A stretch of DNA of 24,034 nt. It comes from a virus. Positions within the stretch are counted from its first letter, which is position 1; every line of letters begins with the position of its first letter. Of this stretch, positions 572 to 19,518 are shown one piece after another. The notes under the pieces were generated by a model that saw only the letters and a list, made by a program, of their open reading frames with translations, was not told where the DNA came from and ran no database searches. The stretch spans positions 1-24,034 of the IMG/VR virus record IMGVR_UViG_3300027375_000014; one strand, written 5' to 3'. Both the position numbers and the translations under genes were made by a program.

Positions 572-1492
572 TTACGGAGTTACATTGATAACAACTTGTT
601 GAGCTGGGTTAGTTGCAATGATACCGCCCGTGAAACGCATTATGGTGCGGACATTCTGAGATCCGTCGATTTTAGATAAATCTATGACAGACACTTCGTT
701 AAAGTCGCTCAATAAACCAGTACCAAAGTGTAAATCAGATTTCATACCTAAAATACAGTCGTTATCAGATAAACCAGGACACATTGTTACTGGAATACCT
801 TGGAAGTTCATTGGCTTTTCACCAACATAGAATTGGAAGTTGTAGTTACCAGCAGATAAAGCAGCTTGGTAAGCCTTCATTGTAGATGGGCCAACATAGT
901 ATTGGTAACCTTCTTTACCGTACAATGCAGCTGGAGAGTAATCCAAAGCTTCTTGCAAACGAGCAACAACGTTACCTGAAGTTGTAGCACCAGCGAATGG
1001 GCGAACGATAGCAGAGTTGTCAATCAAGTATTGAACCATACCACCAGTGTAGAAAGTGTTAGATTTCCAGATACCTAATTCAACGGCTTGAGCAACCTCA
1101 GCAGCAACTTGAGCTAATAAAAATTGCTCGAATGTAGCTGGTAATTTTTCAAATGCAGAGTAACCAGCTTGTGCAGCTTCCCAAGTTGTTCTCAAGTTGT
1201 TCTTACACAAAGTTAAGTTTACTTGTTTTTCAACTGTGGTCAATACATATTCTCCCAAAGTGATTGAAGAGCTATCTGTGTAATCACAAGTTGCGTTGTC
1301 TACGCTGATTGATTGTTGCCAGTTACGAATAACTTGCTTGTAAGCAACATTAGGGTGCAAAGTGATTAATTCTTTTGCAAGAGTTTCACCACTCAAAAGG
1401 GCGGCAGCGATATATTCGTTACCGAACTGACCAGCATAAGTATTTGGAGATACTGTAGGGCCAGAAAGTTTGATGTTTTTTAAATCTTTCAT
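572..1492 (-). CDS. Major capsid protein
   Basis: This is the probable major head protein, 306 residues from the ATG at 1492 (MKDLKNIKLSGP). A longer frame exists upstream, but it would run into the preceding gene, and the AT-rich gap 1493-1505 fits a start here. The N-terminal AGQFGNEYIAAALLSG, the central LTLCKNNLRTTWEAAQAGYS and the following LPATFEQFLLAQVAAEVA match my memory of capsid proteins in Bacteroidota siphophage-like genomes. Size and order (protease, scaffold-like gene, then this) are those of an HK97-fold head module. A terminator-like hairpin follows. The HK97 fold itself is inferred from context, not seen in the sequence. Confidence 0.8.
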   Translation of the reverse strand: MKDLKNIKLSGPTVSPNTYAGQFGNEYIAAALLSGETLAKELITLHPNVAYKQVIRNWQQSISVDNATCDYTDSSSITLGEYVLTTVEKQVNLTLCKNNLRTTWEAAQAGYSAFEKLPATFEQFLLAQVAAEVAQAVELGIWKSNTFYTGGMVQYLIDNSAIVRPFAGATTSGNVVARLQEALDYSPAALYGKEGYQYYVGPSTMKAYQAALSAGNYNFQFYVGEKPMNFQGIPVTMCPGLSDNDCILGMKSDLHFGTGLLSDFNEVSVIDLSKIDGSQNVRTIMRFTGGIIATNPAQQVVINVTP

Positions 1493-1505
1493 TTTATTTG
1501 TTTTT

Positions 1506-2123
1506 TTATTTGAATAATTGGTTAAATACTCGGTCAGTAACGGTTTCGTTTCTTTTCTCACCGATTTTAAATTTGATTGAATTTACTGGATTTGCCTCTG
1601 GAGAGTGGAATGATCTTGGAGCTTCCTCAGATGCTAAACGAGATACTAACTCGTCACGCTCTTCAGTTACACTTGACAATTTCATTTTAAGAGCATTTAA
1701 CTCTTCTCTGATTTCAGAAATTTCAGCAGAAAACTCACTTACTTTAGTTGTAGTTTCAGTTAACTTTTTAGGCTTTGCCATTTCCTCAACGATTTGTTCT
1801 TTCATTGGTTCATCTTGCATTACTTCCTCAATGATTGGCTCTTCCATTACTTCCTCTTCTTTAGTGGAAATTTCCACGATGTAACCTTTGTCGTCAACTT
1901 TTACAATAGTGCCATCTTCCATAGCGTATTCACCTTGTGGAGCTGGGATTTTGCCATCTTCAGTAACTACGAAAATAGCACTTCCAACTTCAAAAGATTC
2001 AGCGTCAAATGTAGCTTGACCATCCATTGTTTTCATTGATGCAAGGTTAACTTCAACGGCTGGAGCTTCGGCTTTAATGCCTAAAGCAACCATCACTCTG
2101 TTTAATGTTTCGTTTGCGTTCAT
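1506..2123 (-). CDS. Scaffold-like protein
   Basis: The product has 205 residues. The N-terminal half, up to about residue 90, looks folded and beta-rich. A very acidic stretch rich in E, M and P follows (about 87-115), then a predicted coiled coil (about 125-165: SAEISEIREELNALKMK). It ends in a basic tail with ETVTDRVFNQLFK. An acidic, helical protein between prohead protease and capsid genes is the usual picture of a head scaffolding protein, cut or expelled during maturation. The role comes from position and composition; no family motif was recognised. It could instead be a minor head protein. The gap to the capsid start is 13 bases. Confidence 0.6.
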   Translation of the reverse strand: MNANETLNRVMVALGIKAEAPAVEVNLASMKTMDGQATFDAESFEVGSAIFVVTEDGKIPAPQGEYAMEDGTIVKVDDKGYIVEISTKEEEVMEEPIIEEVMQDEPMKEQIVEEMAKPKKLTETTTKVSEFSAEISEIREELNALKMKLSSVTEERDELVSRLASEEAPRSFHSPEANPVNSIKFKIGEKRNETVTDRVFNQLFK

Positions 2124-2137
2124 ATTTATAAAACTTA

Positions 2138-2743
2138 TTATTTTGTGTTGTTACAATTTTGCCATTCAGTCAAGATGCTTATTACCTCTTGCAATTTGGC
2201 CTCTTCATCGGTTAACTCTTTAGTGAACTTTTGTCCTTTATCTACAAAATAACCCTCAATGCTAAAGCCCTGAACAAGTCCAGTTTTTACATAATCATTC
2301 CATACCTCTTCATTCTCGACTTTCATAGCAACCATCCAAGTCCCGATTGGATCAGTCATTCCATACAAAGCAGACTTGTCCTTCTCCATATCTTCCTTAA
2401 CCCAAGATTCAACCAGGCATAAACCTTGAATTTTAACGGCGTGTTCTAAAGTCGCTTGACCTTGATTACCTCTTTGCAAGTAAAGTTCACTTGCCTTCTT
2501 TACAGTTGCCCTTGAAAAATAGCAATAAAATTCCATCCCATCTTGATTGCGATAGATTGGTTTGTTTGGTATTAATGCTGGGCCTAATAAGATTCTTTTT
2601 TCAGCATCAACAGTGGCAAATTTTACCTTATGGTTATTAAGTGCCACGAAGTTAGATTCAATGGCTGGTGATTTTACGATACTGATTGCATCGATACCAC
2701 TTGCCATTTGATCCTCATCAAGTAATAACTCCAGAATCTGCAT
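2138..2743 (-). CDS. Prohead serine protease, XkdF-like
   Basis: This 201-residue protein probably processes scaffold and capsid proteins inside the prohead. Visible motifs fit the XkdF-type phage protease family: GPALIPNKPIYR (54-65), TLEH with the likely catalytic His101, LVESWV (110-115), GTWMVAMKV (134-142), and GFSIEGYF (159-166) with the likely catalytic Ser161. The ATG shares one base with the stop of the gene before it (TAATG), which suggests coupled translation. It precedes the scaffold-like and capsid genes, the normal place for a maturation protease. The third catalytic residue was not assigned. Confidence 0.82.
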   Translation of the reverse strand: MQILELLLDEDQMASGIDAISIVKSPAIESNFVALNNHKVKFATVDAEKRILLGPALIPNKPIYRNQDGMEFYCYFSRATVKKASELYLQRGNQGQATLEHAVKIQGLCLVESWVKEDMEKDKSALYGMTDPIGTWMVAMKVENEEVWNDYVKTGLVQGFSIEGYFVDKGQKFTKELTDEEAKLQEVISILTEWQNCNNTK

Positions 2744-3033
2744 TATTTTATACGACTATAAAGTTTAGTACAAACTGCAAGTTTTTCTTGCAACATCTTT
2801 TTGCCTTTAGTGATTCTATCCATTAAAGGAGTATCACCGATTTGCTTTGATAGTTTATCCATCAATTCAAACTCTGGAATCATATTGTTTAATGAATCCA
2901 TATTGCCCTTGATTTTATTTTGCACTTCATTTAATTTAGCTTCCAACTGTGGCATTTGCATCGCCAAGTCGTTTATAGATGTTTCGATTGCATCTATTTT
3001 ACCCAAATCAATTTTAAAACCTTTCTTTTGCAT
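2743..3033 (-). CDS. Small coiled-coil protein of the structural module
   Basis: This protein has 96 residues, is almost wholly helical in appearance, and is charged. Heptad-like hydrophobic spacing runs from about residue 13 to 90 (QLEAKLNEVQNKIKGN). There is no signal peptide or membrane segment. It sits between the tape-measure-like gene and the protease and overlaps the protease start by one base. The family was not recognised. A head or tail assembly accessory protein is plausible from position only. Confidence 0.65.
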   Translation of the reverse strand: MQKKGFKIDLGKIDAIETSINDLAMQMPQLEAKLNEVQNKIKGNMDSLNNMIPEFELMDKLSKQIGDTPLMDRITKGKKMLQEKLAVCTKLYSRIK

Positions 3034-3047
3034 ATATATAAAATTGT

Positions 3048-4880
3048 TTAGCCCCCTAATGTTGCATTTTGGCTTATGCGTCTGTCAAGACTTTGTCTGC
3101 TTGTTACATCGTTACCCACGACATACGCTTTTTGAGGGCCACCAACCGCACCTTGTAAGCTTCTTGCCATCTGTGTTGAGGAATCAACTTGCCCTCCAAC
3201 AACGCCTATTGATGGGCCACCAGTTCCACCACTTACTCCTCCAGTTTCAACCCCCATTTTACTCGCTTGTTCTGATATCTTTTTTATGTTAGCGATACCA
3301 GTTGCAATAACCGAAGCCATTAATAAAAAATTCATTGGCGGTGGAGCTGATGCCAAGGCCTTATTCGCTGCGACATATGTATCAATAACCGCTTGACCAA
3401 TAGCTAAAACTGTTGCACCTTTAGAGTTTTCTTTTAGTAAACCTTGAATAGCTCCCAATACTTGTTTTGTAGCGTCAAGTTTACTTTGAATTTGAGCTTG
3501 TTCTGCGTCTTGTAAAGCTTTAGTCTCTTCTTGTTGCTTTTTAGTTAAATCTAACTTTTGTTGAGCAATTGTTTTTTCAATGTCTAAAGTATCGAGGCCA
3601 TTTTTTACTCTGCTATTATAGATTTCTTGATTCTTGGCAAGTTCTAAATCAAGTAAAGTTTGTTGCAATACTTTCTCATCTTCAATAGTTTGCATTGCCA
3701 CAAGTTTTTTACGCTCGTATTGATCAGCAATGGTCTTCTCTTCCTGAGCATATTGCTCTTTTAATTGTGCGTCTTTAGCTTGTTTTGCCTTTTCAGCTTC
3801 CTCTTGTGCTTTCTTATCAGCATCCGCATTTATTTTAGCGACATTATTCTGATATTGTTTATTGATTAACTCTAATGCCTTGGCTTTTTCTTTTGCATTC
3901 ATTGTTGAACGCTGAATATCAAGTTTGGCGTTTTCATTGTCAATCTCGGCTTGTTTTAAAGCCTTCTCCCTTTCGGTCTGGATTGAATCAACGGCAAGTT
4001 TCTGTTCTAAAGCTCTAATTTTATCAGCTGATTCTTGCCTTTGTTTATTATAATCTTCAATTCTTTTCTTCCTATCCTCTGCTTGTTTCTTTTCTTCCTC
4101 GGCTTTAGCTTTTTTAGCGTCAGCATCTTCCTTTTCAATCTTTTGGTTTTCTTTAGCAAATTCTTTTCTCTTATTTGCAAGATTGGTTTCGGTGTTTAGG
4201 ATTTGTATTTCAGCTTCTTGTAGTTGCTTTTTACGGTCTTTTGATTCCCCATTTAAAGCAATTTCCTTTCTGATATTTTCGGCTTTCTTTTTAGCGTTCT
4301 TTAGCTCTTCAGCAGCCAAACTTGTCTCGGCATCGGAAATCTTTTTAAGTGCTGCCTTCCTTTCATCAAGCGTTTTATTAGTATCATTTAAAATTTCTTT
4401 AGCTTCGGCTAAATCTTTATTCTGTTTTGCTCTTTTAAGTGCCAGGGATTCTTCAGCGTCCTCAACTTCCTTAATGCTATCCGCCAAGTCCGAAGCCTGG
4501 TCACCAGTTACGCCAAACCATCCAGCAACGGCCTCTAATACTCCAATAAATTTATCAGCTAAAAATATAGCAAAGTCTTGAACAACCTTTACAACTGGAC
4601 TTATAATGCCTTTAAATATTGCAGTAATTTTGGCAAGTTTGCCCATACCTTCATCAGTTGACTGCAAAGCCTCATAAAGCGTTTTTAATGCAATAGCAAT
4701 ACCAGATATAACTAAAACAATTGGGTTTTTAATTAATTGTAAGAATTGTTTACCTAATCCAGATACGGCATTTGCAGCATTACCAACTGGCCCTGGTAAA
4801 CTACCAAAGCTTTTGCCTATATTGTCAAGCTTCTCATCGAAACCGTCAAGGTCTAACCCAAACTTAATTTTCTTAGCCAT
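3048..4880 (-). CDS. Tape-measure-like coiled-coil protein
   Basis: The product has 610 residues. A short N-terminal region is followed by a hydrophobic helix (about 47-72), then a second hydrophobic stretch (about 85-125). A very long alternating Lys/Glu coiled coil covers about 135-470. Another hydrophobic part (about 485-535, with AIGQAVIDTYVAANKAL) follows, then a Gly-rich stretch and a C-terminal part with AYVVGNDVTSRQSLDRR. This design fits a tail tape-measure or a coiled-coil internal virion protein. At about 1.5 angstroms per residue, a general rule for tape measures, it would set a tail near 90 nm. It lies between tail and head genes. The start ATG overlaps the small gene upstream by 28 bases. 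Confidence 0.65.
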   Translation of the reverse strand: MAKKIKFGLDLDGFDEKLDNIGKSFGSLPGPVGNAANAVSGLGKQFLQLIKNPIVLVISGIAIALKTLYEALQSTDEGMGKLAKITAIFKGIISPVVKVVQDFAIFLADKFIGVLEAVAGWFGVTGDQASDLADSIKEVEDAEESLALKRAKQNKDLAEAKEILNDTNKTLDERKAALKKISDAETSLAAEELKNAKKKAENIRKEIALNGESKDRKKQLQEAEIQILNTETNLANKRKEFAKENQKIEKEDADAKKAKAEEEKKQAEDRKKRIEDYNKQRQESADKIRALEQKLAVDSIQTEREKALKQAEIDNENAKLDIQRSTMNAKEKAKALELINKQYQNNVAKINADADKKAQEEAEKAKQAKDAQLKEQYAQEEKTIADQYERKKLVAMQTIEDEKVLQQTLLDLELAKNQEIYNSRVKNGLDTLDIEKTIAQQKLDLTKKQQEETKALQDAEQAQIQSKLDATKQVLGAIQGLLKENSKGATVLAIGQAVIDTYVAANKALASAPPPMNFLLMASVIATGIANIKKISEQASKMGVETGGVSGGTGGPSIGVVGGQVDSSTQMARSLQGAVGGPQKAYVVGNDVTSRQSLDRRISQNATLGG

Positions 4881-5023
4881 AATCTTATTATCCCTCTTTT
4901 AATTTTAAATTTTACTTTGTCTTTTCTGGTCTTTAACTTATATTTACCTTTGGCAATTTCTACATTCTCAGATACTCCAACCCATTCGTTTGATTGGGAC
5001 AGTTTTATTATTTCGTTTATCAT
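4853..5023 (-). CDS. Small basic protein, 56 residues
   Basis: This short frame fills the gap between two large structural genes. Its ATG overlaps the TGA of the 894-residue tail protein in an ATGA arrangement. Its end overlaps the tape-measure-like gene by 28 bases. The product begins MINEIIKLSQSNEWVG and its second half is strongly basic (GKYKLKTRKDKVKFKIKRG). The family was not recognised. The ATGA coupling and the absence of any other use for the gap are the reasons for calling it. Confidence 0.6.
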   Translation of the reverse strand: MINEIIKLSQSNEWVGVSENVEIAKGKYKLKTRKDKVKFKIKRGIIRLWLRKLSLG

Positions 5024-7704
5024 ATTATTCGCTCGATTGTAAATGATGTCCTTTCAATGTCTATGTTTTTAGTCGATCCGTCAAGAGTATAAGCTCTTAA
5101 CTTAACAACTTGGTTTTCGCCTATTGTCGCACTTGCGATAAGATTTATGGACAAAATTGTATTGGCGTGTGTTTCTTGATAGGCCTCTGTTTGTACGCCA
5201 TCAATATTAACTTCATAGCCAACTTTAGCCGATGAACCGTTATTGATTACCATATTGACATTGATTCTATACTGCCCAGATGTGTTTATTGTTACCTGGC
5301 TATTGGCTAAATCATAAGTATAAAATCTTTGATCACCGTCAAACCCGACATCAGTCAATGTTATAACTTGTGGCGTTGGGTTAACTGTTATTGGTAAGTT
5401 GCTATAATTCCACATCGTTACCTTATTAAGTGAAACCAAAGGAAGTATATTATCCATAATTGGAGTAATCATTGATTGAGCTGATATGTTGAATGTTTCA
5501 ATATCAACTGCATCCGTAGTATAAATACCTCCGCCTTCAATCGCATTGGCTAAAGCTTTACGAATAGGATTCCCATCTATAAAGGTCTTGCCATTATCCG
5601 TTGCGACCACTGTATTAAATGTAGGTTTTTTGCCAGTTGTTGAAGTAACTTGTAAATAGTTTACATTCGGATAAGTGATCAACTCAATGACGGCCTTTTG
5701 GCTTAACAAATCGTATTGGATTTTTTGAATCTTATAATAGTTTCCACTTATAGCCACATTATCATTCAGCTTCATATTAAGCCAAACGCCAACTGGTAAT
5801 ACCGCATTAACCACAACGATTCGGCTTCTTGATGAATAAAGCCTTGACAAATATTTATTCCAGTATAACCAATACATAGAATTGATTGGCATATTGCCTT
5901 TAAGTGGTGCTTCAAGCCCAAATGCAGTTGAATAAGCTCCAGATGTATAATTGCTAAAAGGAGATGATGGCGGATATTGAGTGATTAAAGAAGTCCCTAC
6001 ATAGAAACTATTTGCAACTGTTTTCAGATTTGTGTTTCGCCCATTATAGAATAGAATCAACTTTTGGTCAACCCCTTGAGATTCTGAATTGATTATAAAC
6101 GGCATTTCAATGTCCGTATTGCTGATCATATTCCCTGAAGTGTCAACCTCTTGGATCAATGTTATTGGGTTCACCTGGAAAACCGTTTCAAACTCGATTG
6201 GCTCGTCGCTGAAGTCAACATCAGGCCTAAAGGTAACATCCCCAAAGTTTCGTTTATAGGTTGTTTTAAAGAATGTCTGTGGTAAAGCTTCGCCCTCTTT
6301 GTGCTTCATTGTAATTGATGATGGCACATTCATCTTTCTATGAGTTAGATTCTTAAAATCTATAAACTCAGTGTACTCGACATTTTGTCCTAAAGCATAC
6401 CAATCTTCAATGTTATGCAATTCAAAACCATCAATAGTATTTGACGGCACAAGCACCGCATTAAACATTTGAAGAACAGAATTGAAAAACTCTGAAACTT
6501 TAATCTCTGGCATCACTCGTGCCATATCAACAAGCACTTGGCTTGTAGGCGGAGACAATAAACAAGCAATGCTACCATCAACCACCGCATCAACTGGTGT
6601 ATTGTAAATAAATTGAACCACATCTCCTTTGCTTAATCTTAAAAAATTGCAAAATTGCTGACCACTGCTAACCCATTGAGCTGCCGTTTTGTTTTGATAA
6701 AAGCCTTTTGTTTTGCCATTAACAGTTACTTTAACGCCAAGCGTTGGTGTAAATGTAGGGGCAACTAATGGAGTGTAATTTGTAATTGTTAACCCAAAAG
6801 TATATTGACCAGTTTCAGGGCAAGTATAAGTGTATGTTGTATTATTCCAAGCCCCACTTGTATTACCAGTTACAACTGTATTTCCAACTGGCAAAGCAAA
6901 CCAAGTATTTAAAGTGCTTGTTGGTTTAAAAATACTTTGCGGAGCTGAATCATTAGCCTCAAAGTTACCATAATTATTGCCGTTGATACGATCAAAATAA
7001 CTTCCAGGGGCTTCTTGTGGTGTTACATAAAGATATTCAAACTCTGGTCTTGATAATAATGTACCCCCTAAACTAAAATTTTCAGCCGTAAAGATATTTT
7101 CAATCATATCTTTAAGCAAAATTGATGGCCTTAAGCCTTTATAGTTGATTGTATTTTGTACGCCTATGTCATAAGATACCCCACCACTCTTTTTGCAATA
7201 ACGATATCCGTATCCGTAGTCTTTTAAATCCCAAATAATCGCACCGCCTAAAATACCACCAGTCCAAGACGAAACGACTAAAGCATTGCTGATCGTATGT
7301 AAGTAATTTGACCAATCAATTTCGGGCAATGTCTTCTCACCCCAATTGACTAAAAGCTTCTTGGTTGTGCCATAGAAAACTATATTATAAGAGCTTGGAA
7401 GTCCGTCAATGAATTTAACCTCGAGCAATTCAATTTCACCAGTAAAGACTGGCAAGCCGTGTATGTAAATTTCACCACTTAAGGCAAAGTTCTGATTCCA
7501 GCTTTGCAAAAGGACATTCTCGTCAAAATAGTTTTGAAATATCTTATTGTTTGATTCTGTAGCTGGTATGGTAAAGTTCTGTGAGAAGTCAGTAAAGACA
7601 GTATCAATCTTTGAATAGTCTTTTATCTGTCTGTTCAGCTCGATTGATTCATCTTGAAACAAGTCAACCAGTTTGCCATCTATAATAAGCGAAAAATATA
7701 TCAT
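5020..7704 (-). CDS. Large tail/baseplate protein with jelly-roll-like domains
   Basis: The product has 894 residues. The N-terminus (DLFQDESIELNRQIKDYSKID, then FSQNFTIPATESNNKIF) fits a conserved structural protein I recall from Bacteroidota phages. A central region (about 290-385, with CPETGQYTFGLTI) and the last 115 residues (about 780-894, with TSGQYRINVNMVINNG) both read like beta-sandwich, C1q/TNF-like modules. Such modules often sit in host-facing or trimeric parts. The gene overlaps its upstream partner by four bases and its downstream small gene by ATGA. Likely roles are tail tip, baseplate or an adhesin-bearing minor tail protein. The exact position in the virion is not visible from sequence. 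Confidence 0.65.
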   Translation of the reverse strand: MIYFSLIIDGKLVDLFQDESIELNRQIKDYSKIDTVFTDFSQNFTIPATESNNKIFQNYFDENVLLQSWNQNFALSGEIYIHGLPVFTGEIELLEVKFIDGLPSSYNIVFYGTTKKLLVNWGEKTLPEIDWSNYLHTISNALVVSSWTGGILGGAIIWDLKDYGYGYRYCKKSGGVSYDIGVQNTINYKGLRPSILLKDMIENIFTAENFSLGGTLLSRPEFEYLYVTPQEAPGSYFDRINGNNYGNFEANDSAPQSIFKPTSTLNTWFALPVGNTVVTGNTSGAWNNTTYTYTCPETGQYTFGLTITNYTPLVAPTFTPTLGVKVTVNGKTKGFYQNKTAAQWVSSGQQFCNFLRLSKGDVVQFIYNTPVDAVVDGSIACLLSPPTSQVLVDMARVMPEIKVSEFFNSVLQMFNAVLVPSNTIDGFELHNIEDWYALGQNVEYTEFIDFKNLTHRKMNVPSSITMKHKEGEALPQTFFKTTYKRNFGDVTFRPDVDFSDEPIEFETVFQVNPITLIQEVDTSGNMISNTDIEMPFIINSESQGVDQKLILFYNGRNTNLKTVANSFYVGTSLITQYPPSSPFSNYTSGAYSTAFGLEAPLKGNMPINSMYWLYWNKYLSRLYSSRSRIVVVNAVLPVGVWLNMKLNDNVAISGNYYKIQKIQYDLLSQKAVIELITYPNVNYLQVTSTTGKKPTFNTVVATDNGKTFIDGNPIRKALANAIEGGGIYTTDAVDIETFNISAQSMITPIMDNILPLVSLNKVTMWNYSNLPITVNPTPQVITLTDVGFDGDQRFYTYDLANSQVTINTSGQYRINVNMVINNGSSAKVGYEVNIDGVQTEAYQETHANTILSINLIASATIGENQVVKLRAYTLDGSTKNIDIERTSFTIERII

Positions 7705-8810
7705 CGAACAATGCTATTGATTAGTGGTTGAGCGTATTCAAAATTGAATGTGTACATTATAAGCTTATCGTTTTTAGCCGTCTTTTTATCAAAGGCAGAA
7801 TCCACGATCTGACAAGCATAGGTTTTAGCATTGTAATAAACAAATACTGCCGAGCTTAAAAGCAACTGTTGGAAATAATCGACATAAGATTCGGGAATCC
7901 AGTTAGTATTTGCAAGTTGCTTGTATACACCTTGAATATTATAAGGTGTTTTGATCCCAACGCCATAAGTCCAGGCCTCCGCCATATTAGTTTGAGCATA
8001 TATGCCTTTGTAATATTCCTCTTTAGTTGTAGTCATTGCAACCTTACTAACCGCATTAAATGAATACCCCTCAATAACGCCATACCTATTTTTGAATAGT
8101 ATAGTTGTCGTGCCGTATTTATTAGGACAATCAAACTTGACGCTTATGGTTTCCGATCCAGTTGAGTAATTGAATACGATATTGATATCATTACCCCAAG
8201 TCCCCCCAGCCGTTATGAGTTGTTTTAGCTCAACCGCTTGGATGTAAGTGCTTGAATTGGTAACCGCAGTCGGAGTGATGGTGCTTGTGCCACAAACAAT
8301 GCTTGTTATTTTAGTCGCATCATACCAGATATAATCGTATTGCGTTTCTGTGGTAAGGTATACTGTTGTTCTGTCAGTTAAAACTCGTTTAGTGGTCGCC
8401 TGGTTAAACCCTTCAAGTGTATATTCGTATCCTTTAGTGGCTAAAATGACATTGCTTGTTACTGGAGACGATGAACCACCGCCCCAAAATCCGTTTACCT
8501 TAACCGCACAATAAACTGCACCGCTTCCAATAGTTGATGTGGATGCTCCAATGGTTAAAAAATTGTCGCTTATATATTGAGTAACAATTTTAGAAATATC
8601 AATCCAACTTCGATTACCAGCGTATGTATCTGGAAGCCTATTGATTTCCGCTATCGGTGAAGCTGGTATGGTAGTCGTGCCACTCCACACATAGATTTTG
8701 TATTGATAAACAAAATTAGGTTGAGCGTAGTCGGTGTCATACGCTTGATATAGCATTGATGACAATGCTCCTTTTATGCTTGTAGGTTGTACGGTTAAGC
8801 TTATAGCCAT
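7701..8810 (-). CDS. Minor tail/structural protein
   Basis: This protein has 369 residues, is beta-rich, and has many Thr and Ser. It begins MAISLTVQPTSIKGALSSM and contains a conserved-looking tract (FDCPNKYGTTTILFKNRYG) near residues 228-246. It overlaps the start of the 894-residue tail protein by four bases, so the two are probably made together and may form one complex. I recognise the type as a structural protein that sits beside the large tail protein in Bacteroidota phages, but I know no exact function. There is no membrane segment or enzyme motif. Confidence 0.6.
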   Translation of the reverse strand: MAISLTVQPTSIKGALSSMLYQAYDTDYAQPNFVYQYKIYVWSGTTTIPASPIAEINRLPDTYAGNRSWIDISKIVTQYISDNFLTIGASTSTIGSGAVYCAVKVNGFWGGGSSSPVTSNVILATKGYEYTLEGFNQATTKRVLTDRTTVYLTTETQYDYIWYDATKITSIVCGTSTITPTAVTNSSTYIQAVELKQLITAGGTWGNDINIVFNYSTGSETISVKFDCPNKYGTTTILFKNRYGVIEGYSFNAVSKVAMTTTKEEYYKGIYAQTNMAEAWTYGVGIKTPYNIQGVYKQLANTNWIPESYVDYFQQLLLSSAVFVYYNAKTYACQIVDSAFDKKTAKNDKLIMYTFNFEYAQPLINSIVR

Positions 8811-8811
8811 T

Positions 8812-9354
8812 TTATAATATTTTATTTAAATTATCTGCAACATCTTGCTCAATTGCCTCTTTTAATTTATTGGCAAATCTATCCTCTGTTATGTCAACAC
8901 TCATATCAATAAATGGATAAGCTTCAATACCAAAAAATTTGATTTTTCGATTCATACAAAAAGCCATTGCCTTCCTATTGTTTTTTGTGTTCTTTAAAAA
9001 TTCACCGCTCTTTGTATTTCTTGGCTTTAGTCTTTTTTGGCCAATCCATTTGTCCATCTGATCAACTGGTATGCCCTTGCCTGGCTTTCTGCCGTCATTA
9101 ATATAATTACCATAGTCGGCCATCTCAACAAAATACTTTCCTTGCACATATACTGGCTTGATGCTATTTACTAATTGACCAGATGCGGTATGGTTAGCTC
9201 TGATTGATTTTATACTAATATTTTTAGGTCTCCCATTTTGCCATTCAGCTCTATAAGTTTTTCTTAACACTTTAGCCCCCAAATTGATTTTCATTTGGTT
9301 AGCCTGGAATGTTACAATTTCCCTTAAAACTTTATTGGTATTAACAGTATCCAT
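8812..9354 (-). CDS. Tail-completion/neck protein, HK97 gp10-like
   Basis: The product has 180 residues and is basic. The central ASGQLVNSI (about 57-65), followed by DYGNYINDGRKPGKGIP (about 80-96), and the later GIEAYPFIDMSV, follow the general layout of gp10-like tail-completion proteins, with a Tyr/Gly-rich core and a basic middle. Such proteins join the head-tail connector to the tail tube. It overlaps the gene before it by 14 bases and lies one base from the gene after it. The assignment is by pattern and place. Confidence 0.55.
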   Translation of the reverse strand: MDTVNTNKVLREIVTFQANQMKINLGAKVLRKTYRAEWQNGRPKNISIKSIRANHTASGQLVNSIKPVYVQGKYFVEMADYGNYINDGRKPGKGIPVDQMDKWIGQKRLKPRNTKSGEFLKNTKNNRKAMAFCMNRKIKFFGIEAYPFIDMSVDITEDRFANKLKEAIEQDVADNLNKIL

Positions 9355-9835
9355 CAGTTACAATTGGGTTTGCCACATCTATATTTAATGTGATTGTATA
9401 TCCAGCTATTACATCATCGTATGTCTCCTCAAACGCAGTTAATTGAATAGGCTTTTGAATCTCCAGAGCATTGTAGTAAAGCTCTTCATATTTGCGACAA
9501 GCAATTGCGAAGTCAACATATAACTGTTGAAGCACCATTGCGTAGTTATTATTCTCTGTGTATCCAATCTCTGAATAAAGCGTCTCTTGGTTTAAGCCTT
9601 GATTTTCGGTTGTGATAGTATTTACACGATCAGCAATCATTATGTTCACCTGGACGGTTGCCATAACCTCATCAAGACTTACTTGGCTTACATTAGTATG
9701 CATATAAGGATAAACCAACATTGAACGCATATTCATTTCGGTAATATTACCGTGGGAATATCTTGCACCCATTTCGTTTGCCACATCCTTACAAAACGCT
9801 AAAGCCGTGCCAATATGATTTTTATCTTTTTGCAT
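9341..9835 (-). CDS. Possible tail terminator or neck protein
   Basis: The product has 164 residues and was not firmly recognised. It has a helical N-terminal half (HIGTALAFCKDVANEMG), a middle with VMATVQVNIMIADRV, and a C-terminal strand-rich end (AGYTITLNIDVANPIV). Size and place beside the gp10-like gene fit a tail terminator or neck protein. Its ATG lies inside the last codons of the -1 frame of the chaperone gene (which stops at 9822), and nine bases past the end of the zero frame. Either version could therefore feed ribosomes into it. Confidence 0.5.
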   Translation of the reverse strand: MQKDKNHIGTALAFCKDVANEMGARYSHGNITEMNMRSMLVYPYMHTNVSQVSLDEVMATVQVNIMIADRVNTITTENQGLNQETLYSEIGYTENNNYAMVLQQLYVDFAIACRKYEELYYNALEIQKPIQLTAFEETYDDVIAGYTITLNIDVANPIVTDGYC

Positions 9836-10088
9836 TTGTTTTATTTAATTCTGATTTTTGAACTTCTTGAAGATCGAGTACATAACTTTGCCACAATAGT
9901 GTCTTGTGTATAGGGAGGCATACCACAGCATCAGTTTTGAGTATGTCTCCGTTAGTAAGTCCGTAAACAAAGCCGTACCATCCCCATTTTTTACTGAACG
10001 CTGAAACTCCCGCATTTGCGAGTCCTTCGGATTCTCCTCCGCTAAAGACTTCAGAATATAGCTCACTAAGTCGCTTCCTAAATTGCAA
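9822..10088 (-). CDS. -1 frame extension of the tail chaperone (gpGT-like)
   Basis: This frame has no ATG at its head; it opens with TTG inside the T run. A -1 slip on T9 after codon 160 of the zero frame would join the first 160 residues to 88 residues of this frame, for a 248-residue fusion ending at 9822. The extension contains SKKWGWYGFVYGLTNGDI and LPIHKTLLWQSYVLDL, which look like genuine protein rather than noise. Its stop overlaps the start of the next gene by 14 bases. The tail-assembly role is inferred from lambda G/GT-type frameshifting, which is the known precedent. It could be expressed alone from the TTG, which seems less likely. Confidence 0.6.
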   Translation of the reverse strand: MQFRKRLSELYSEVFSGGESEGLANAGVSAFSKKWGWYGFVYGLTNGDILKTDAVVCLPIHKTLLWQSYVLDLQEVQKSELNKTNAKR

Positions 10089-10567
10089 AAAAAAAGCATC
10101 GCACCTTTTACATATGCCATTGGAATTTCTTGAAAATCCTCGTTTATTTTGCCATTGTAAGCTTCAATTGTATAATGTTTGCCATCATCTTGTTTGATTG
10201 GCCTATACAAAACCGACATTATCTTGTATAGATTGTCCCTTTCTTTTTGGTAATTGTCTATGTCAATAAATTCAGCCGTTGTTATCTCATCAAGATTTGG
10301 AATAAATCCGTATTTAATCCCATTAAGCTCAAATGTCCTTATCAAACCAGGATCATCTGTTAAAGCTTCTTTAATATTATTTAGGATTTCCTCAAGTGTC
10401 TTATAAGGAATCTTTTTTATTTCGTGCGTGTTAATCTCGCAGAAAATGGAAATGGTTTGTATTGCTCTATCAAAGTCGCTCAATGTCTCTGGGAGCTTTT
10501 CAAACTCCAAGTATTGATGCAACTTAATATCCTTTAAACTTGTTGGTACAATTAGGCTTCTCTCCAT
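9845..10567 (-). CDS. Putative tail assembly chaperone, zero-frame product
   Basis: The product has 240 residues. Features include IVPTSLKDIKLHQYLEFEKL near the start, KYGFIPNLDEITTAEFIDID (about 85-104) and KIMSVLYRPI (about 115-124), then GAMLFFCNLG where a run of nine T lies. After that the frame stays open for 80 more residues, including KNGDGTALF. I recognise the type from Bacteroidota phages, where it lies among tail genes. Position before the tape-measure-like gene and a slip site fit a gpG-like tail chaperone. It follows a terminator, so it may begin its own transcription unit, although I saw no clear promoter. No enzyme motif is present. Confidence 0.65.
   Translation of the reverse strand: MERSLIVPTSLKDIKLHQYLEFEKLPETLSDFDRAIQTISIFCEINTHEIKKIPYKTLEEILNNIKEALTDDPGLIRTFELNGIKYGFIPNLDEITTAEFIDIDNYQKERDNLYKIMSVLYRPIKQDDGKHYTIEAYNGKINEDFQEIPMAYVKGAMLFFCNLGSDLVSYILKSLAEENPKDSQMREFQRSVKNGDGTALFTDLLTETYSKLMLWYASLYTRHYCGKVMYSIFKKFKNQN
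10087..10095 (-). other. Putative -1 ribosomal frameshift site (T9)
   Basis: On the minus strand the zero frame reads ATG CTT TTT TTT TGC. This contains the canonical slippery heptamer T TTT TTT in the right phase. A shift of one base back moves directly into the second open frame (TTG CAA TTT AGG). I saw no clear downstream pseudoknot by eye. Confidence 0.6.
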
Positions 10568-10602
10568 ATGGGAATAAAACCCAAAAAAGCCGATTTGTTA
10601 CG

Positions 10603-10625
10603 AAAAAAGGGGCTTTAATGCCCCC
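10603..10625 (-). terminator. Intrinsic terminator between the terminase and tail blocks
   Basis: On the minus strand GGGGC (624-620 of the 10-kb block) pairs with GCCCC (10613-10609) around a six-base loop, and six T follow. It lies one base past the stop of the 83-residue gene and 36 bases before the chaperone start. It therefore separates the terminase/small-gene unit from the structural unit. Confidence 0.8.
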
Positions 10626-10877
10626 TTAAAAGATTGAATGGTCGCCGAAACTATCCGTATCGACATACTTATTGAATAGGTCAACTATTTTATTGTGGGC
10701 ATCAATTATAACCCTTTGGGCGTTGCCAGTGCCGTAGTAAATATCCTCTTTTAATGTCTCAAGGATATATACGGCCTCTTCTCTGATTTTCTCGTCGCAG
10801 TCATTGAAATGGCTTTCAACAAAGTCCTCAAGTTCATAAAGGTCGTGTGATGGGCAATTGTCTTCGTTTAGTTTCAT
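10626..10877 (-). CDS. Acidic hypothetical protein, 83 residues
   Basis: The product is very acidic, with pI clearly low (CPSHDLYELEDFVESHF), and looks helical. It has no membrane segment or known motif. It overlaps the gene before it by four bases (ATGA) and is the last gene before an intrinsic terminator. It belongs to the three-gene unit behind the promoter at 11199. The function is unknown. Confidence 0.65.
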   Translation of the reverse strand: MKLNEDNCPSHDLYELEDFVESHFNDCDEKIREEAVYILETLKEDIYYGTGNAQRVIIDAHNKIVDLFNKYVDTDSFGDHSIF

Positions 10878-11089
10878 ATCTTATTTATTTCTTTTTTTAC
10901 TTGTTGCCAGTATTTAATTCTATCAAGGGAAGTGTCCCCATTGTTATGCTCAAATGTATCCCATAGCATTTCTTCGACAAATATCAAAGCACATTCTCTG
11001 GCATTCCCAATCTGTTGAGTTTCAGAAATGGCCTCAACATAATAGATGTACTTGTCAAATAATTGTTTTGCCTTTTCTTTAGGTGTCAT
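10874..11089 (-). CDS. Small conserved phage protein (MTPKEKA type)
   Basis: This 71-residue protein begins MTPKEKAKQLFDKYIYY and contains ARECALIFVEEML and YWQQVKKEINKI. I recognise this as a very common small protein of Bacteroidota phages and prophages, always of unknown function. Its start is coupled by ATGA to the tiny membrane protein gene before it, and its end by ATGA to the next gene. Confidence 0.75.
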   Translation of the reverse strand: MTPKEKAKQLFDKYIYYVEAISETQQIGNARECALIFVEEMLWDTFEHNNGDTSLDRIKYWQQVKKEINKI

Positions 11090-11187
11090 AGTCTTTCAAT
11101 TATAGCGATTAAAGTGCCAAGTGCTAATGCCGTAATCATAATGGCATTAAATAGGTGAAGTGCGATGTTTTTAATTATGTTTTTCAT
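11086..11187 (-). CDS. Tiny single-pass membrane protein, 33 residues
   Basis: The frame from the ATG at 11187 gives a 33-residue product starting MKNIIKNIALHLF. One hydrophobic helix fills most of it, with basic residues at the front and ERL at the end. Its TGA overlaps the next ATG (ATGA). The ATG lies 11 bases from the -7 box of a near-perfect promoter, the same spacing as other first genes here. That makes it the leading gene of a three-gene unit. The function is unknown; membrane anchoring or holin-like action are possible. Confidence 0.65.
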   Translation of the reverse strand: MKNIIKNIALHLFNAIMITALALGTLIAIIERL

Positions 11188-11198
11188 ATTTGATGGAG

Positions 11199-11228
11199 CA
11201 AAGATACACTTATATTTTATATTTACAA
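11199..11228 (-). promoter_or_regulatory. Bacteroidota-type promoter (TTG-N19-TATCTTTG)
   Basis: The minus strand has TTG at 11228-11226, a 19-base spacer, and TATCTTTG at 11206-11199. This matches the known Bacteroidota vegetative pattern TTG-N19-23-TAnnTTTG. It lies just after the large terminase gene and 11 bases before the 33-residue gene. A second TATATTTG at 11238-11231 lacks a good TTG partner. Confidence 0.75.
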
Positions 11229-11247
11229 AACAAATATACAAATATTT

Positions 11248-12417
11248 TTATCTGATTGAATATTTGCCATAATTAGGTCGGTTAAATGAATTGAATATAG
11301 CATACCTAGAAGCATCAATACCGTGGTTAAAAGCATCCACTGGCCTATTGGTAGCCTTGCCGTCTTTGTCCTGAATATACTTGTAGTTTCTGAACTCCTT
11401 AATTAAATTAGTTGATCGTGTGGTAATATGTATTTTGTAACGCCTCATCATATCAATTCCAATATTTATACTATCTGGGCCTTTAGCCGTTGGTTTTACA
11501 TTAAATCCATATGAATGAATCTCATTGATGGACTTCGGTTCGCTTGAATCAGCAAATATATTTACTCGCCTATCTATGTTTAGCGACCTCATAACATCTA
11601 CAATATCCTTGTTTGTCATTCCGTTCTGATAAATATGCTCATCAAGGTATATCTTATCGTCATAAAGATAAACAGAAACCAAGGCCGTAGGATCTTGGGT
11701 ATATCCAAAGTCTAAACCATAAGCAATGAATCGAGCTTCTTGTGGTATATTGCCAATCTCCTCGTAATTAAATACCAATAGTTTTGATTGAGCTTTTTGT
11801 CCAAGTCCATAGATTCTCCAATATGTCTCGTCAACTTCCTTTAACCGTTCAATCTCTGCCACCAGGTTAGCATCAAGGAATGGATTGTCTTTATATGTGG
11901 TTACAAAAAACTCCGCATCAGGTCTTGGGATGATATTATCATAAAGCCAGTGATACTCTTCGGATGGATTAAAGTCAATTATTACCTTGTCCGTTGTTCT
12001 TATATTTAATTGGAAGAAATCTTCCCATTTAAGCTCATTGCCCTCATTGACAAACAATAAGTGCCTTTTGCGACCTCTAATCTTTTGTGGTTCATCCAAG
12101 CTTACAAACTCAACCACATTGGAATTAAGATGATATTCATTAACAGACTTGTAGTGATCCTCTTCGTTATATAAATCATATTTGCGGAGTAACTCAAAAA
12201 AGTCCCTCATCACTGATCCACGAAGTGCTGGGCCGTGTTTCCTTACTATTGAAATTATTTTGTTTTGATTGGATAAGCAATACTTGAATATAATCCAAAT
12301 AAGGATATTGTAAGTCTTACCAGACCTTGTGCCTCCTTGCTCAATGGTAAATCTTTTAGCGCTTTTCTCAAGGTGCGAGAAAACACAATTACTCTTCAAG
12401 TTTATTGATAACTTCAA
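11248..12417 (-). CDS. terL: Terminase large subunit
   Basis: This is the packaging motor ATPase and nuclease, 389 residues, a normal length. The Walker A site is GGTRSGKT (28-35). The Walker B strand is LLFVNEG (120-126) with Glu125. The RNase H-like nuclease domain shows GLDFGYTQDPTA (Asp236), FADSSEPKSI (Asp290) and VDAFNHGIDASRYA (Asp361 or Asp368). This is the PBSX/Terminase_3 type arrangement. It overlaps the small subunit gene by 29 bases. The promoter of the next unit follows its end. No portal gene comes after it, which is unusual. Confidence 0.95.
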   Translation of the reverse strand: MKLSINLKSNCVFSHLEKSAKRFTIEQGGTRSGKTYNILIWIIFKYCLSNQNKIISIVRKHGPALRGSVMRDFFELLRKYDLYNEEDHYKSVNEYHLNSNVVEFVSLDEPQKIRGRKRHLLFVNEGNELKWEDFFQLNIRTTDKVIIDFNPSEEYHWLYDNIIPRPDAEFFVTTYKDNPFLDANLVAEIERLKEVDETYWRIYGLGQKAQSKLLVFNYEEIGNIPQEARFIAYGLDFGYTQDPTALVSVYLYDDKIYLDEHIYQNGMTNKDIVDVMRSLNIDRRVNIFADSSEPKSINEIHSYGFNVKPTAKGPDSINIGIDMMRRYKIHITTRSTNLIKEFRNYKYIQDKDGKATNRPVDAFNHGIDASRYAIFNSFNRPNYGKYSIR

Positions 12418-15576: not shown

Positions 15577-15712
15577 TATAATAATTTTTTAAAAGTTCTG
15601 CCTCTTCTCTATTTGGGAATGCTCCAACTATAATACCATCGTGCCAGACTCTGTAAATCTTTTTAGCATCTGGAGTATAATCGAATAAATAGCTTATGCT
15701 AATTGACGCCAT
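15512..15712 (-). CDS. Small hypothetical protein, 66 residues
   Basis: The product has YRVWHDGIIVGAFPNREE in the middle and then ELLKNYYNEIKNQ. This reads as a small alpha/beta protein, and the final dozen residues are polar. It overlaps the Cys-rich gene before it by 14 bases and the ParB-like gene after it by 65 bases. I did not recognise a family. The well-formed middle supports a real gene, but the long overlap with ParB leaves doubt about its end. Confidence 0.55.
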   Translation of the reverse strand: MASISISYLFDYTPDAKKIYRVWHDGIIVGAFPNREEAELLKNYYNEIKNQTYSDQGNQREPKQSS

Positions 15713-16133
15713 ATTCTTTATAAATGATTAATAAGTCATTGATCATATCTTGCCAGGCTTTAGGATTGCAAGTGCAAGGTCTATAAAATTTCCTTGAGTG
15801 AAATACTCTATTCCAAATAGTAGCAATTTCGTCGCCTTCTTGTTTAGTCAAGGTTGTATTGTTTACCTTTTGAAACTCGGTTAAATAGTTAAACTCGTTT
15901 TCTGTCAAGCACAATGGTTGCTTGTAACGGAATAACTTATTAAGCTTCTCTTTACGCTCTTCGCATCCGCAGTCTTCTCCAGCAATGAACTTGACTAATT
16001 TATCAATCCCAGTCGCTTTGGTTACCTTCGCAATCGTGTCCCCCAAACCTAATGATGGTTGTTCTTGTGTTTCTTGACTCTCGATATGCTCGATAATCGT
16101 TTTTTGTTTGTTTTTTAAGTTTTTCTTTTGCAT
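15699..16133 (-). CDS. Conserved Cys-containing phage protein
   Basis: The product has 144 residues. The tract GLGDTIAKVTKATGI (29-43), KLVKFIAGEDCGCEERKEK (45-63), KLNKLF, then CLTENE and a final CTCNPKAWQDMI show two paired-Cys sites (CGC and CTC) likely to bind a metal. I recall this protein as frequent in Bacteroidota phages, with no known function. The first 40 residues are encoded in a 131-base overlap with the end of the sigma-like gene. A DNA- or RNA polymerase-associated role would fit the neighbour, but that is inference. Confidence 0.7.
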   Translation of the reverse strand: MQKKNLKNKQKTIIEHIESQETQEQPSLGLGDTIAKVTKATGIDKLVKFIAGEDCGCEERKEKLNKLFRYKQPLCLTENEFNYLTEFQKVNNTTLTKQEGDEIATIWNRVFHSRKFYRPCTCNPKAWQDMINDLLIIYKEYGVN

Positions 16134-16593
16134 TTTTTATTGTGTTAAATATTGAATGTACTCCAATCCCAGTGCTTTTGGCAATGTCTCTTAAACTACA
16201 ACCATTTACAAAGTACAATTCAAGAAGCATTTGCTCATATTCACCGAAGCCCTGGATGATTCGTTTAAGTTTATGTATTAATACCTGATATTTTTGCTCT
16301 TGGTCATCAACTGGCTCAAGCTCATATTCAAAATTGGTAAAATCCGCACCGTATTCCTTGCGTTTGTGGAAGTCGTAATATAGATTCTGAATCACTTTAA
16401 ACACATAAACAGTATTAATGCCTCCAGAATAATTGATTAACTTATCTAAATTCCCCTCTTTGATTTGCAGTTCGCCTATTTTTAAGTACATCTGTTGCAC
16501 AATTTCCTTTGCCGTCGCTGAATCCGCCCCTAAATAGTTCGCTATTTTAAGCCATTCTTTGTGCTTATTGGCAAAGTCTTGAAGCGTTAACAT
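16003..16593 (-). CDS. Sigma-70-like RNA polymerase sigma factor
   Basis: The product has 196 residues. The N-terminal half (about 20-95, with ATAKEIVQQMYLKIGELQ and VFKVIQNLYYDFHKRKEYG) fits sigma region 2. The part at about 135-180 (MLLELYFVNGCSLRDIAKSTG followed by IGVHSIFNTIKNAKEKL) fits the region 4 helix-turn-helix. A phage sigma factor would switch host polymerase to a later gene class. The last 40 or so residues lie past region 4 and overlap the next gene by 131 bases. The VRR-NUC stop overlaps its start by seven bases. It could be a transcription regulator with only the region 4 fold. Confidence 0.75.
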   Translation of the reverse strand: MLTLQDFANKHKEWLKIANYLGADSATAKEIVQQMYLKIGELQIKEGNLDKLINYSGGINTVYVFKVIQNLYYDFHKRKEYGADFTNFEYELEPVDDQEQKYQVLIHKLKRIIQGFGEYEQMLLELYFVNGCSLRDIAKSTGIGVHSIFNTIKNAKEKLKKQTKNDYRAYRESRNTRTTIIRFGGHDCEGNQSDWD

Positions 16594-18641: not shown

Positions 18642-18887
18642 TTACTCATATGCTCCAGTCGTTGTGTTTCTTGTCTCTTCCGATTTCTGTACTTCAGTAT
18701 GCGTCAAGCCTTCAAAACTGAATCCCAAACTTTTAATAACTTCAACTTGTAAAACCTTTACTGGTTCTTTAAAATAGCGTTTACGATGGAAATACCCATC
18801 GGTGTGCTTATACACGACATCTTTAACCCACTTTGGCCCTTTGTCCGTTTGCACTAATAAATTAGCTCTGAATATTTCTGTTGGCAT
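18642..18887 (-). CDS. Hypothetical protein, 81 residues
   Basis: This is taken from the ATG at 18887 (MPTEIFRANLLVQTDKG). An upstream in-frame start would lengthen the overlap with the gene before it from 26 to 59 bases. The front half looks beta-rich and basic (KWVKDVVYKH), and the end is polar. The family was not recognised. It lies between the replication accessory gene and the metallophosphoesterase, in the same direction and with close spacing. Confidence 0.6.
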   Translation of the reverse strand: MPTEIFRANLLVQTDKGPKWVKDVVYKHTDGYFHRKRYFKEPVKVLQVEVIKSLGFSFEGLTHTEVQKSEETRNTTTGAYE

Positions 18888-19518
18888 AGCAAGTTCTATA
18901 ATGAAGACAAACACAAGCAAACATTCTCCAGTTGATATTTGGCAAGGAGAAGTTGTTAATGAATGTCATAAATGGGTTATTTTTCGTTTGGTCTCTTTTG
19001 TATTTATCTTCCAAAGCCAGTTTCAATTCGCTGATCATAATTTCAAGTACAAACTCTGGATATTGCATATCGTCGAATGTGCGAATGAACTCGTATTTAG
19101 AGCTAAAAAACATTGGGAACGAATCAAACTTTTTAGTCTCTTCGTACTCATACCAAACCTTCCTCATATCTTCATACCCCTGGCGTTCCTCCTCTGGAGT
19201 AAGCTTAACAAAGTTTTCAGTCTTTTTAACTTGTGGCTTTTGGATGTCAATTTCACCGAGCAACCCACTATTGATTGCCTTATAGATAACTGTGGCTACA
19301 AATTGAGCGTTTAGTCGCTCTGGCTTCTTTACATCAATTATGCCCATAATCCATTTGTCCATTGAATCCTTAATGACATTAATATTGTATTTGCCATAGT
19401 TTTGTTTGATAAATTCAACAATCTCCGCTGGATATTTCGGGATGTCAAGGTCGGCTAACATACATACATTCTCGAGTATCTTGCCTAATTCTTTATTTTG
19501 TGCGTCTTTAATGTACAT
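18862..19518 (-). CDS. Replication accessory protein, possible helicase loader
   Basis: The product has 218 residues and follows the replication initiator gene after a single base. It looks helical. The front third contains EIVEFIKQNYGKYNINVIK (about 32-50) and MGIIDVKKPERLNAQFVATV (about 58-77), a layout that I associate with helicase-loader-like proteins next to phage initiators. No Walker motif is visible, so it is not an AAA+ loader. Residues from about 110 on are charged and less typical. The role is inferred mainly from its neighbour. Confidence 0.5.
   Translation of the reverse strand: MYIKDAQNKELGKILENVCMLADLDIPKYPAEIVEFIKQNYGKYNINVIKDSMDKWIMGIIDVKKPERLNAQFVATVIYKAINSGLLGEIDIQKPQVKKTENFVKLTPEEERQGYEDMRKVWYEYEETKKFDSFPMFFSSKYEFIRTFDDMQYPEFVLEIMISELKLALEDKYKRDQTKNNPFMTFINNFSLPNINWRMFACVCLHYRTCYANRNIQS

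Follow-up and report, generated by a model that had tools for sequence, protein, structure and literature searches.

A conserved T-run in a Bacteroidota phage gene joins two long frames under selection and is predicted to yield two proteins with alternative C-terminal tails

The slip gene and its surroundings

The stretch of DNA that was analysed (the window) is 24,034 bases long and is a virus record of IMG/VR. The gene of interest lies on the minus strand, as do the next gene, the tape-measure gene and the terminase gene given below. Its zero frame (9845-10567; ATG at 10567, stop at 9847-9845) encodes a predicted product of 240 aa, which belongs to phrog_32199, a family of function unknown (profile match of P0001, E 1.3e-22). 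A run of nine T (10087-10095; A9 on the plus strand) is read in the zero frame as ATG CTT TTT TTT TGC, which gives the heptamer U UUU UUU (T TTT TTT, 10088-10094) the phase that a -1 shift requires. The first codon of the -1 frame is TTG (10088-10086), and this frame (9822-10088) extends for 88 codons, with zero ATG, to a stop at 9824-9822 that overlaps the start of the next gene (9341-9835, 164 aa, ATG at 9835). The zero frame also stays open for 80 codons past the slip. The doubly open stretch is thus 240 nt long (9848-10087), and the same bases encode KKWGWYGF in the -1 frame and KNGDG in the zero frame. The initial annotation had described the run with its phase and heptamer, both open frames, the overlap with the next gene and the two peptides, and all of its coordinates proved correct on the minus strand. 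The predicted -1 fusion has 248 aa: 160 residues shared with the zero-frame product (10088-10567, by alignment; model block pLDDT 78-96) and 88 residues that are modelled as a helical domain with an invariant F..W.W motif. In most relatives a +1-frame stop (the TAG of TTTAGG; window region 10090-10075) lies about two codons past the run and would truncate transcripts from which one base had been deleted.

The upstream neighbour is the terminase large subunit gene (11248-12417), with two small ORFs in between. The gene order is terS, terL and slip gene, followed in relatives by phrog_30964, phrog_29822 (weakly neck or tail completion) and phrog_35281; the next gene of the window occupies the place of the phrog_30964 members. 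In phage P12024L, too, the slip gene comes after terL, and by eye a terminase-like ORF was found upstream in 12 of the 13 listed loci. A probable tape-measure protein (3048-4880, 610 aa; phrog_3336, E 9.6e-9) is encoded five genes away.

Several other features of the window were recorded. Positions 572-12417 have an unusual order, with the terminase, the tail-side genes and the tape measure, then a protease (Peptidase_S78_2) and probable capsid genes. The 894-aa protein encoded at 5020-7704 carries the N-terminal motif FTDFSQNFTIPA, common to the large gene in the same place in many relatives. A sigma-like ORF (16003-16593, by eye) shares 131 nt with the next ORF (15699-16133), which is in another frame; the region 15699-16593 may thus hold another long overlap or a change of frame. 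Two further ORFs in different frames, at 18862-19518 and 18642-18920, have 59 nt in common.

Relatives and the predicted frame change

Relatives were gathered by searching with the protein of each frame separately, and both searches gave relatives. In the first set, which includes the window itself (L001), 134 loci passed the script filter; a further two (L135, L136) carried the site but missed the motif filter, and three (L137-L139) end before the slip site. Some loci are one contig fetched twice, and the first set holds 103 unique overlap sequences. Two further scans added 160 loci, each scan being limited to its best 80 among 343 to 576 confirmed relatives; the slip-gene family is therefore larger than the loci examined. 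The pooled collection consisted of one locus per unique first-set sequence and the 160 added loci (263 loci). Removal of duplicates and of loci with a -1 frame running off the contig left 230 unique sequences, from which 79 divergent representatives (at most 80% identity in the -1 protein) were taken. All 63 members of alignment A3 matched the profile of phrog_32199.

The relatives include one locus in a Bacteroidetes metagenome-assembled genome and two isolates, the Nonlabens phages P12024L and P12024S; when family members were compared with the phage collection by tblastn, only the Nonlabens phages matched at good E-values. The gp40-gp41 pair of these phages (phrog_32199 and phrog_38404) is a true homologue of the slip gene, with the same place after terL, the T9 run and the two frames, but it is annotated as two hypothetical genes and its zero tail has only 25 codons. 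In P12024L (locus L025, 5552-6246; JQ823123.1, 23946-24640), the separately annotated gp40 and gp41 belong to a single T9 slip gene, gp40 being its zero frame and gp41 a part of its -1 frame.

The sequence U UUU UUN was present in the zero-frame phase in 263/263 loci (230 unique sequences), and its last base was T in 250, G in 10 and C in 3. A T-run of 8-12 bases was found at the junction in all 160 added loci, and the first-set runs have 9-10; a T8 occurs in one lineage alone, nearly all members having at least nine T. Homopolymers are error-prone, and a run of this kind could be a sequencing or assembly error, or phase-variable, in a gene that is really read in one frame. We consider this hardly credible, since the phase is the same in all 263 loci from many metagenomes, members with T9 and T10 keep it by shifting the run, the run is also present in the isolate genomes of P12024L and P12024S, and both downstream frames are under selection (see below).

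As the GenBank annotation of two genes in P12024L implies, the -1 ORF could instead be a separate gene with an internal start, such as gp41. Conservation, however, starts directly at the run (xxFR), and in 210 of the 230 unique sequences the open -1 frame lacks an ATG ahead of the W motif. The window has none either, so a slip is needed to reach the -1 frame. BFVD proteins (described below) also resemble both parts as one chain. An internal start is accordingly very improbable.

The predicted slippage could take place during translation or during transcription. Ribosomal -1 slippage is our first choice, because it is the in-phase heptamer that never varies and because the run is as short as T8 in one lineage. 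Slippage of the RNA polymerase on T9 or T10, in which one additional U would give the -1 protein and one U fewer a truncated third product, is a serious rival, though judged less likely. Such slippage would account for runs of at least nine T, which exceed what the heptamer needs. It would also suit the lack of a visible stimulatory RNA structure: no downstream stimulator was found by folding (z +0.46 to -1.38 in 10 folds), and a consensus fold of 11 sequences gave no convincing covariation. A +1 stop two codons on, which would end the third product, is present in 87 of 135 unique sequences and in most of the first set examined; this stop is nevertheless automatic from F-R in the -1 frame and L-G in the zero frame (TTTAGG). 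The strict invariant, moreover, is the in-phase U UUU UUN rather than a long run, and the T8-only lineage is nearer to the ribosomal requirement.

With ribosomal slippage as the preferred reading, most ribosomes would stay in the zero frame and make the 240-aa product, and some would slip by -1 on the U UUU UUU within T9 and make the 248-aa product, in which residues 1-160 would be followed by a different, helical C-terminal domain of 88 residues; the ratio of the two products is likewise a prediction. Over at least about 55 codons both tails would come from the same DNA, and would thus be alternative C-termini rather than a short form and its extension.

Coding constraint in the two frames

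The zero frame was open for at least 47 codons past the slip in 218 of the 230 unique sequences. On a rival view, nothing matters beyond the -1 fusion and some generic zero-frame terminus, and the long zero frame is open by chance or codon bias. Synonymous reshuffling of the -1 codons gave the number of openings to be expected from selection on the -1 protein alone: 4.7 (background) or 15.4 (within-gene codon usage) of the 79 representatives, compared with 73 observed. In a first set of 44 sequences, the Fisher p-values for zero-frame openness with the -1 protein kept were 3e-48 and 7e-18, and those for -1 openness with the zero protein kept were 1e-54 and 4e-23, all overstated as the representatives are related. 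Taken alone, locus L003 (near-identical to the window, with the same -1 product) is more compatible with chance openness, at p = 0.018 (local) or 0.063 (within-gene codon usage); the reverse test on the same locus, with the zero codons reshuffled, gave p = 0.0005 or 0.002. The family-wide result is overwhelming, and the long open zero frame is not due to chance.

The initial annotation had proposed that substitution patterns be compared in both frames across related phages, and had named stops in the -1 frame of homologues, or conservation of the zero frame alone, as findings that would speak against it. The -1 frame was open and conserved in the relatives examined, and substitutions were classified in 40 disjoint pairs (first letter for the zero frame; N, nonsynonymous; S, synonymous). 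The rates were 0.069 (NN), 0.104 (SN), 0.204 (NS) and 1.02 (SS). For the zero frame, omega was 0.66 (0.55-0.79) by NN/SN, an estimate possibly biased because NN changes hit second positions of the -1 frame, and 0.20 (0.09-0.42) by NS/SS, where the SS class comprises only 38.5 sites; for the -1 frame, the two corresponding estimates were 0.34 (0.28-0.41) and 0.10. An omega below 1 in the zero frame also argues against the view that this frame is open by chance or codon bias. The -1-synonymous rate was 0.206 in the dual part, compared with 0.380 after the zero stop and with a zero-frame synonymous rate of 0.580 before the slip; the after-stop control is also below the pre-slip rate, and part of the drop is therefore not dual coding.

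The changes themselves were conservative in the other frame: those silent in the -1 frame had a BLOSUM score of -0.46 versus -0.99 in the zero frame (p 2e-4), and those silent in the zero frame scored 0.62 versus -0.13 in the -1 frame (p 2e-4). A stricter test that matched base changes gave p 5e-4 in the dual part and a smaller effect (p 0.03) in the after-stop control. Among distant members, the zero-frame similarity exceeded that of synonymously reshuffled -1 codons by z 38. In 28 short-tail members, the excess was 0.79 BLOSUM units in the dual part versus 0.23 in the after-stop control, which indicates that shared ancestry and codon bias account for the smaller part of it. With this region as control, zero-frame residues are conserved far beyond the demands of the -1 protein. 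Purifying selection acts in both frames: it is stronger in the -1 frame, and weaker but real in the zero frame.

The zero-frame constraint is not uniform along the tail. Examined column by column, the zero-frame excess fades from around codon 55, beyond which no members but those with long tails contribute. In the clade of the window, the ratio of the -1-silent rate to the pre-slip rate was 0.25 for codons 2-26, 0.50 for codons 27-52 and 0.58 from codon 55; in all 17 long-tail pairs together it was 0.43 from codon 55 onward, and in short-tail members past their zero stop, which serve as a single-coding control, it was 0.69. Zero-frame constraint is thus well supported for about the first 55 codons and weakly supported for the last 25 in the clade of the window, and these last 25 or so may be free, their ratio of 0.58 being near that of the control. 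Of the roughly 240 bases of dual coding proposed in the initial annotation, the 240 nt of double openness and the selection on both frames stand, while zero-frame selection shows clearly in roughly the first 55 codons and is weak beyond them in this clade.

A short zero tail (7-40 codons) was found in 12 of the 230 unique sequences, namely 16-25 codons in the P12024L lineage, 7 in L228, 40 in L077 and L091, and 36 in L078. The long zero tail is therefore not always needed and is common rather than universal. That the P12024L lineage and L228 manage with 7-25 zero codons, and that the final 25 codons are nearly unconstrained in the clade of the window, would be expected if the long zero frame were dispensable; set against the openness in 73 of the 79 representatives and the conservation of zero-frame residues, a zero frame open by chance or codon bias remains improbable.

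Structure, likely role and meaning

The model of the zero-frame product had a mean pLDDT of 88, with a mostly helical zero tail (block values 66-88), and that of the helical -1 domain had a pLDDT of 75. Foldseek searches of the PDB gave no hit at E<=0.001, and no match for the slip gene products was found in Pfam, NCBIfam or the PDB sequences; the PHROGs profiles likewise gave no usable link to a known tail chaperone. VIA-align rows for the zero-frame model covered mostly the helical hairpin 152-222, an arrangement that is common, with Z at or below about 7, and were set aside as not usable. The profile of phrog_166 ('tail protein') was matched by 2 of 63 members (best E 2.8e-5). In BFVD, the zero-frame model had 33 Foldseek hits at E<=0.001, all of them unnamed or uncharacterised phage proteins. 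Four BFVD proteins (234-267 aa) were common to the match lists of both models, with E-values of 1.6e-8, 8.3e-8, 2.6e-4 and 0.39 against the zero-frame model and weak ones (0.012, 0.021, 0.12 and 0.20) against the -1 model.

Another candidate relative is gp3 of Elizabethkingia phage TCUEAP1 (L309, 2164-2706), which lies directly after terL and whose single uninterrupted ORF ends in a -1-type C-terminal domain and contains no T-run. Its match to the -1 domain had an hhalign E of 5e-6 (probability 86). The fusion profile matched gp3 in the -1 domain only (13.4 bits, E 0.0023 among 1,000 sequences), its N-terminal part giving no match to that of the slip gene, and a scan of viral contigs with gp3 gave no relatives. 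On this sequence similarity, gp3 is a possible slip-free relative, and together with the BFVD proteins it suggests that the -1 fusion probably exists elsewhere as a single chain.

The genes lambda gpG/gpGT, HK97 gp13/14, P2 E/E' and Mu 41 likewise use a programmed slip (-2 in Mu 41, per its annotation) to make two products with a shared N-terminal part, and lie in the late structural module. A conserved predicted slip joining two ORFs in such a module was found here in 263/263 loci. Lambda-type genes, however, follow the major tail protein, whereas the slip gene follows terL and is five genes away from the tape measure, and hhalign comparisons with lambda G, Mu 41, HK97 gp13 and P2 E (one sequence each) detected no homology. 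Since the usual defining position before the tape measure is not occupied, we do not file the slip gene in the lambda family. The initial annotation had called it a tail chaperone gene of the lambda G/GT type; the conserved -1 slip site and the dual coding that it described are supported, but sequence, profile and fold gave no link to that family, and the gene adjoins the terminase rather than the tape measure.

In the window, a gap of 139 nt separates the 894-aa gene from the probable tape measure and leaves no room for another gene, so that the slip gene would be the likeliest candidate for an assembly chaperone made in two forms. By analogy with lambda gpG/gpGT, its products would most likely serve as an assembly chaperone or adaptor whose two forms are required in unequal amounts; the logic of the slip, the neck and tail neighbours and the stronger selection on the -1 domain point the same way. 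We consider it likely that this one gene of the phage structural module gives two proteins with a shared part of 160 residues and alternative C-terminal tails, with such a role.

In paramyxovirus P/V/W (transcriptional slippage) and influenza PA-X, a slip also lets one stretch of nucleotides encode a second C-terminus; these are animal RNA viruses with unrelated proteins, and the likeness is one of logic only. To our knowledge, long overlapping coding with selection in both frames is uncommon in DNA phages. The slip gene would be a phage assembly gene with two forms made by slippage, whose C-termini swap and share coding DNA. No description of the slip-gene family, or of a long dual-coding tail chaperone, was found in the openly licensed part of the PMC literature. 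Our reading, which we favour by a modest degree, is that a large family of Bacteroidota phages carries a dual-coding cassette in which the slip picks between two functional, mutually exclusive helical tails at a set ratio, a layout absent from the lambda-type genes compared. In lambda, the G part is reported to bind the tape measure and the T part the major tail protein, neither being present in the virion (PMC5009743). In genes of this type the distance from slip to zero-frame stop is short, as the initial annotation had stated: the mean is 26 nt in the SEA-PHAGES training set, as reported for PRFect (PMC10885494), and the distance is 20 nt in P2 E/E'. Here it is 240 nt, and the zero frame is under selection. 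A frameshift finder that looks for the slip near the zero-frame stop, at about that mean, may miss such genes.

The family is now annotated as unrelated hypothetical genes, and the finding corrects this annotation in Bacteroidota phages. Its hundreds of natural sequences let the constraint on each frame be measured, and the slip gene is a candidate for the assembly chaperone so far missing from these phages. It also raises the question of why a phage would swap a C-terminal domain instead of extending it.
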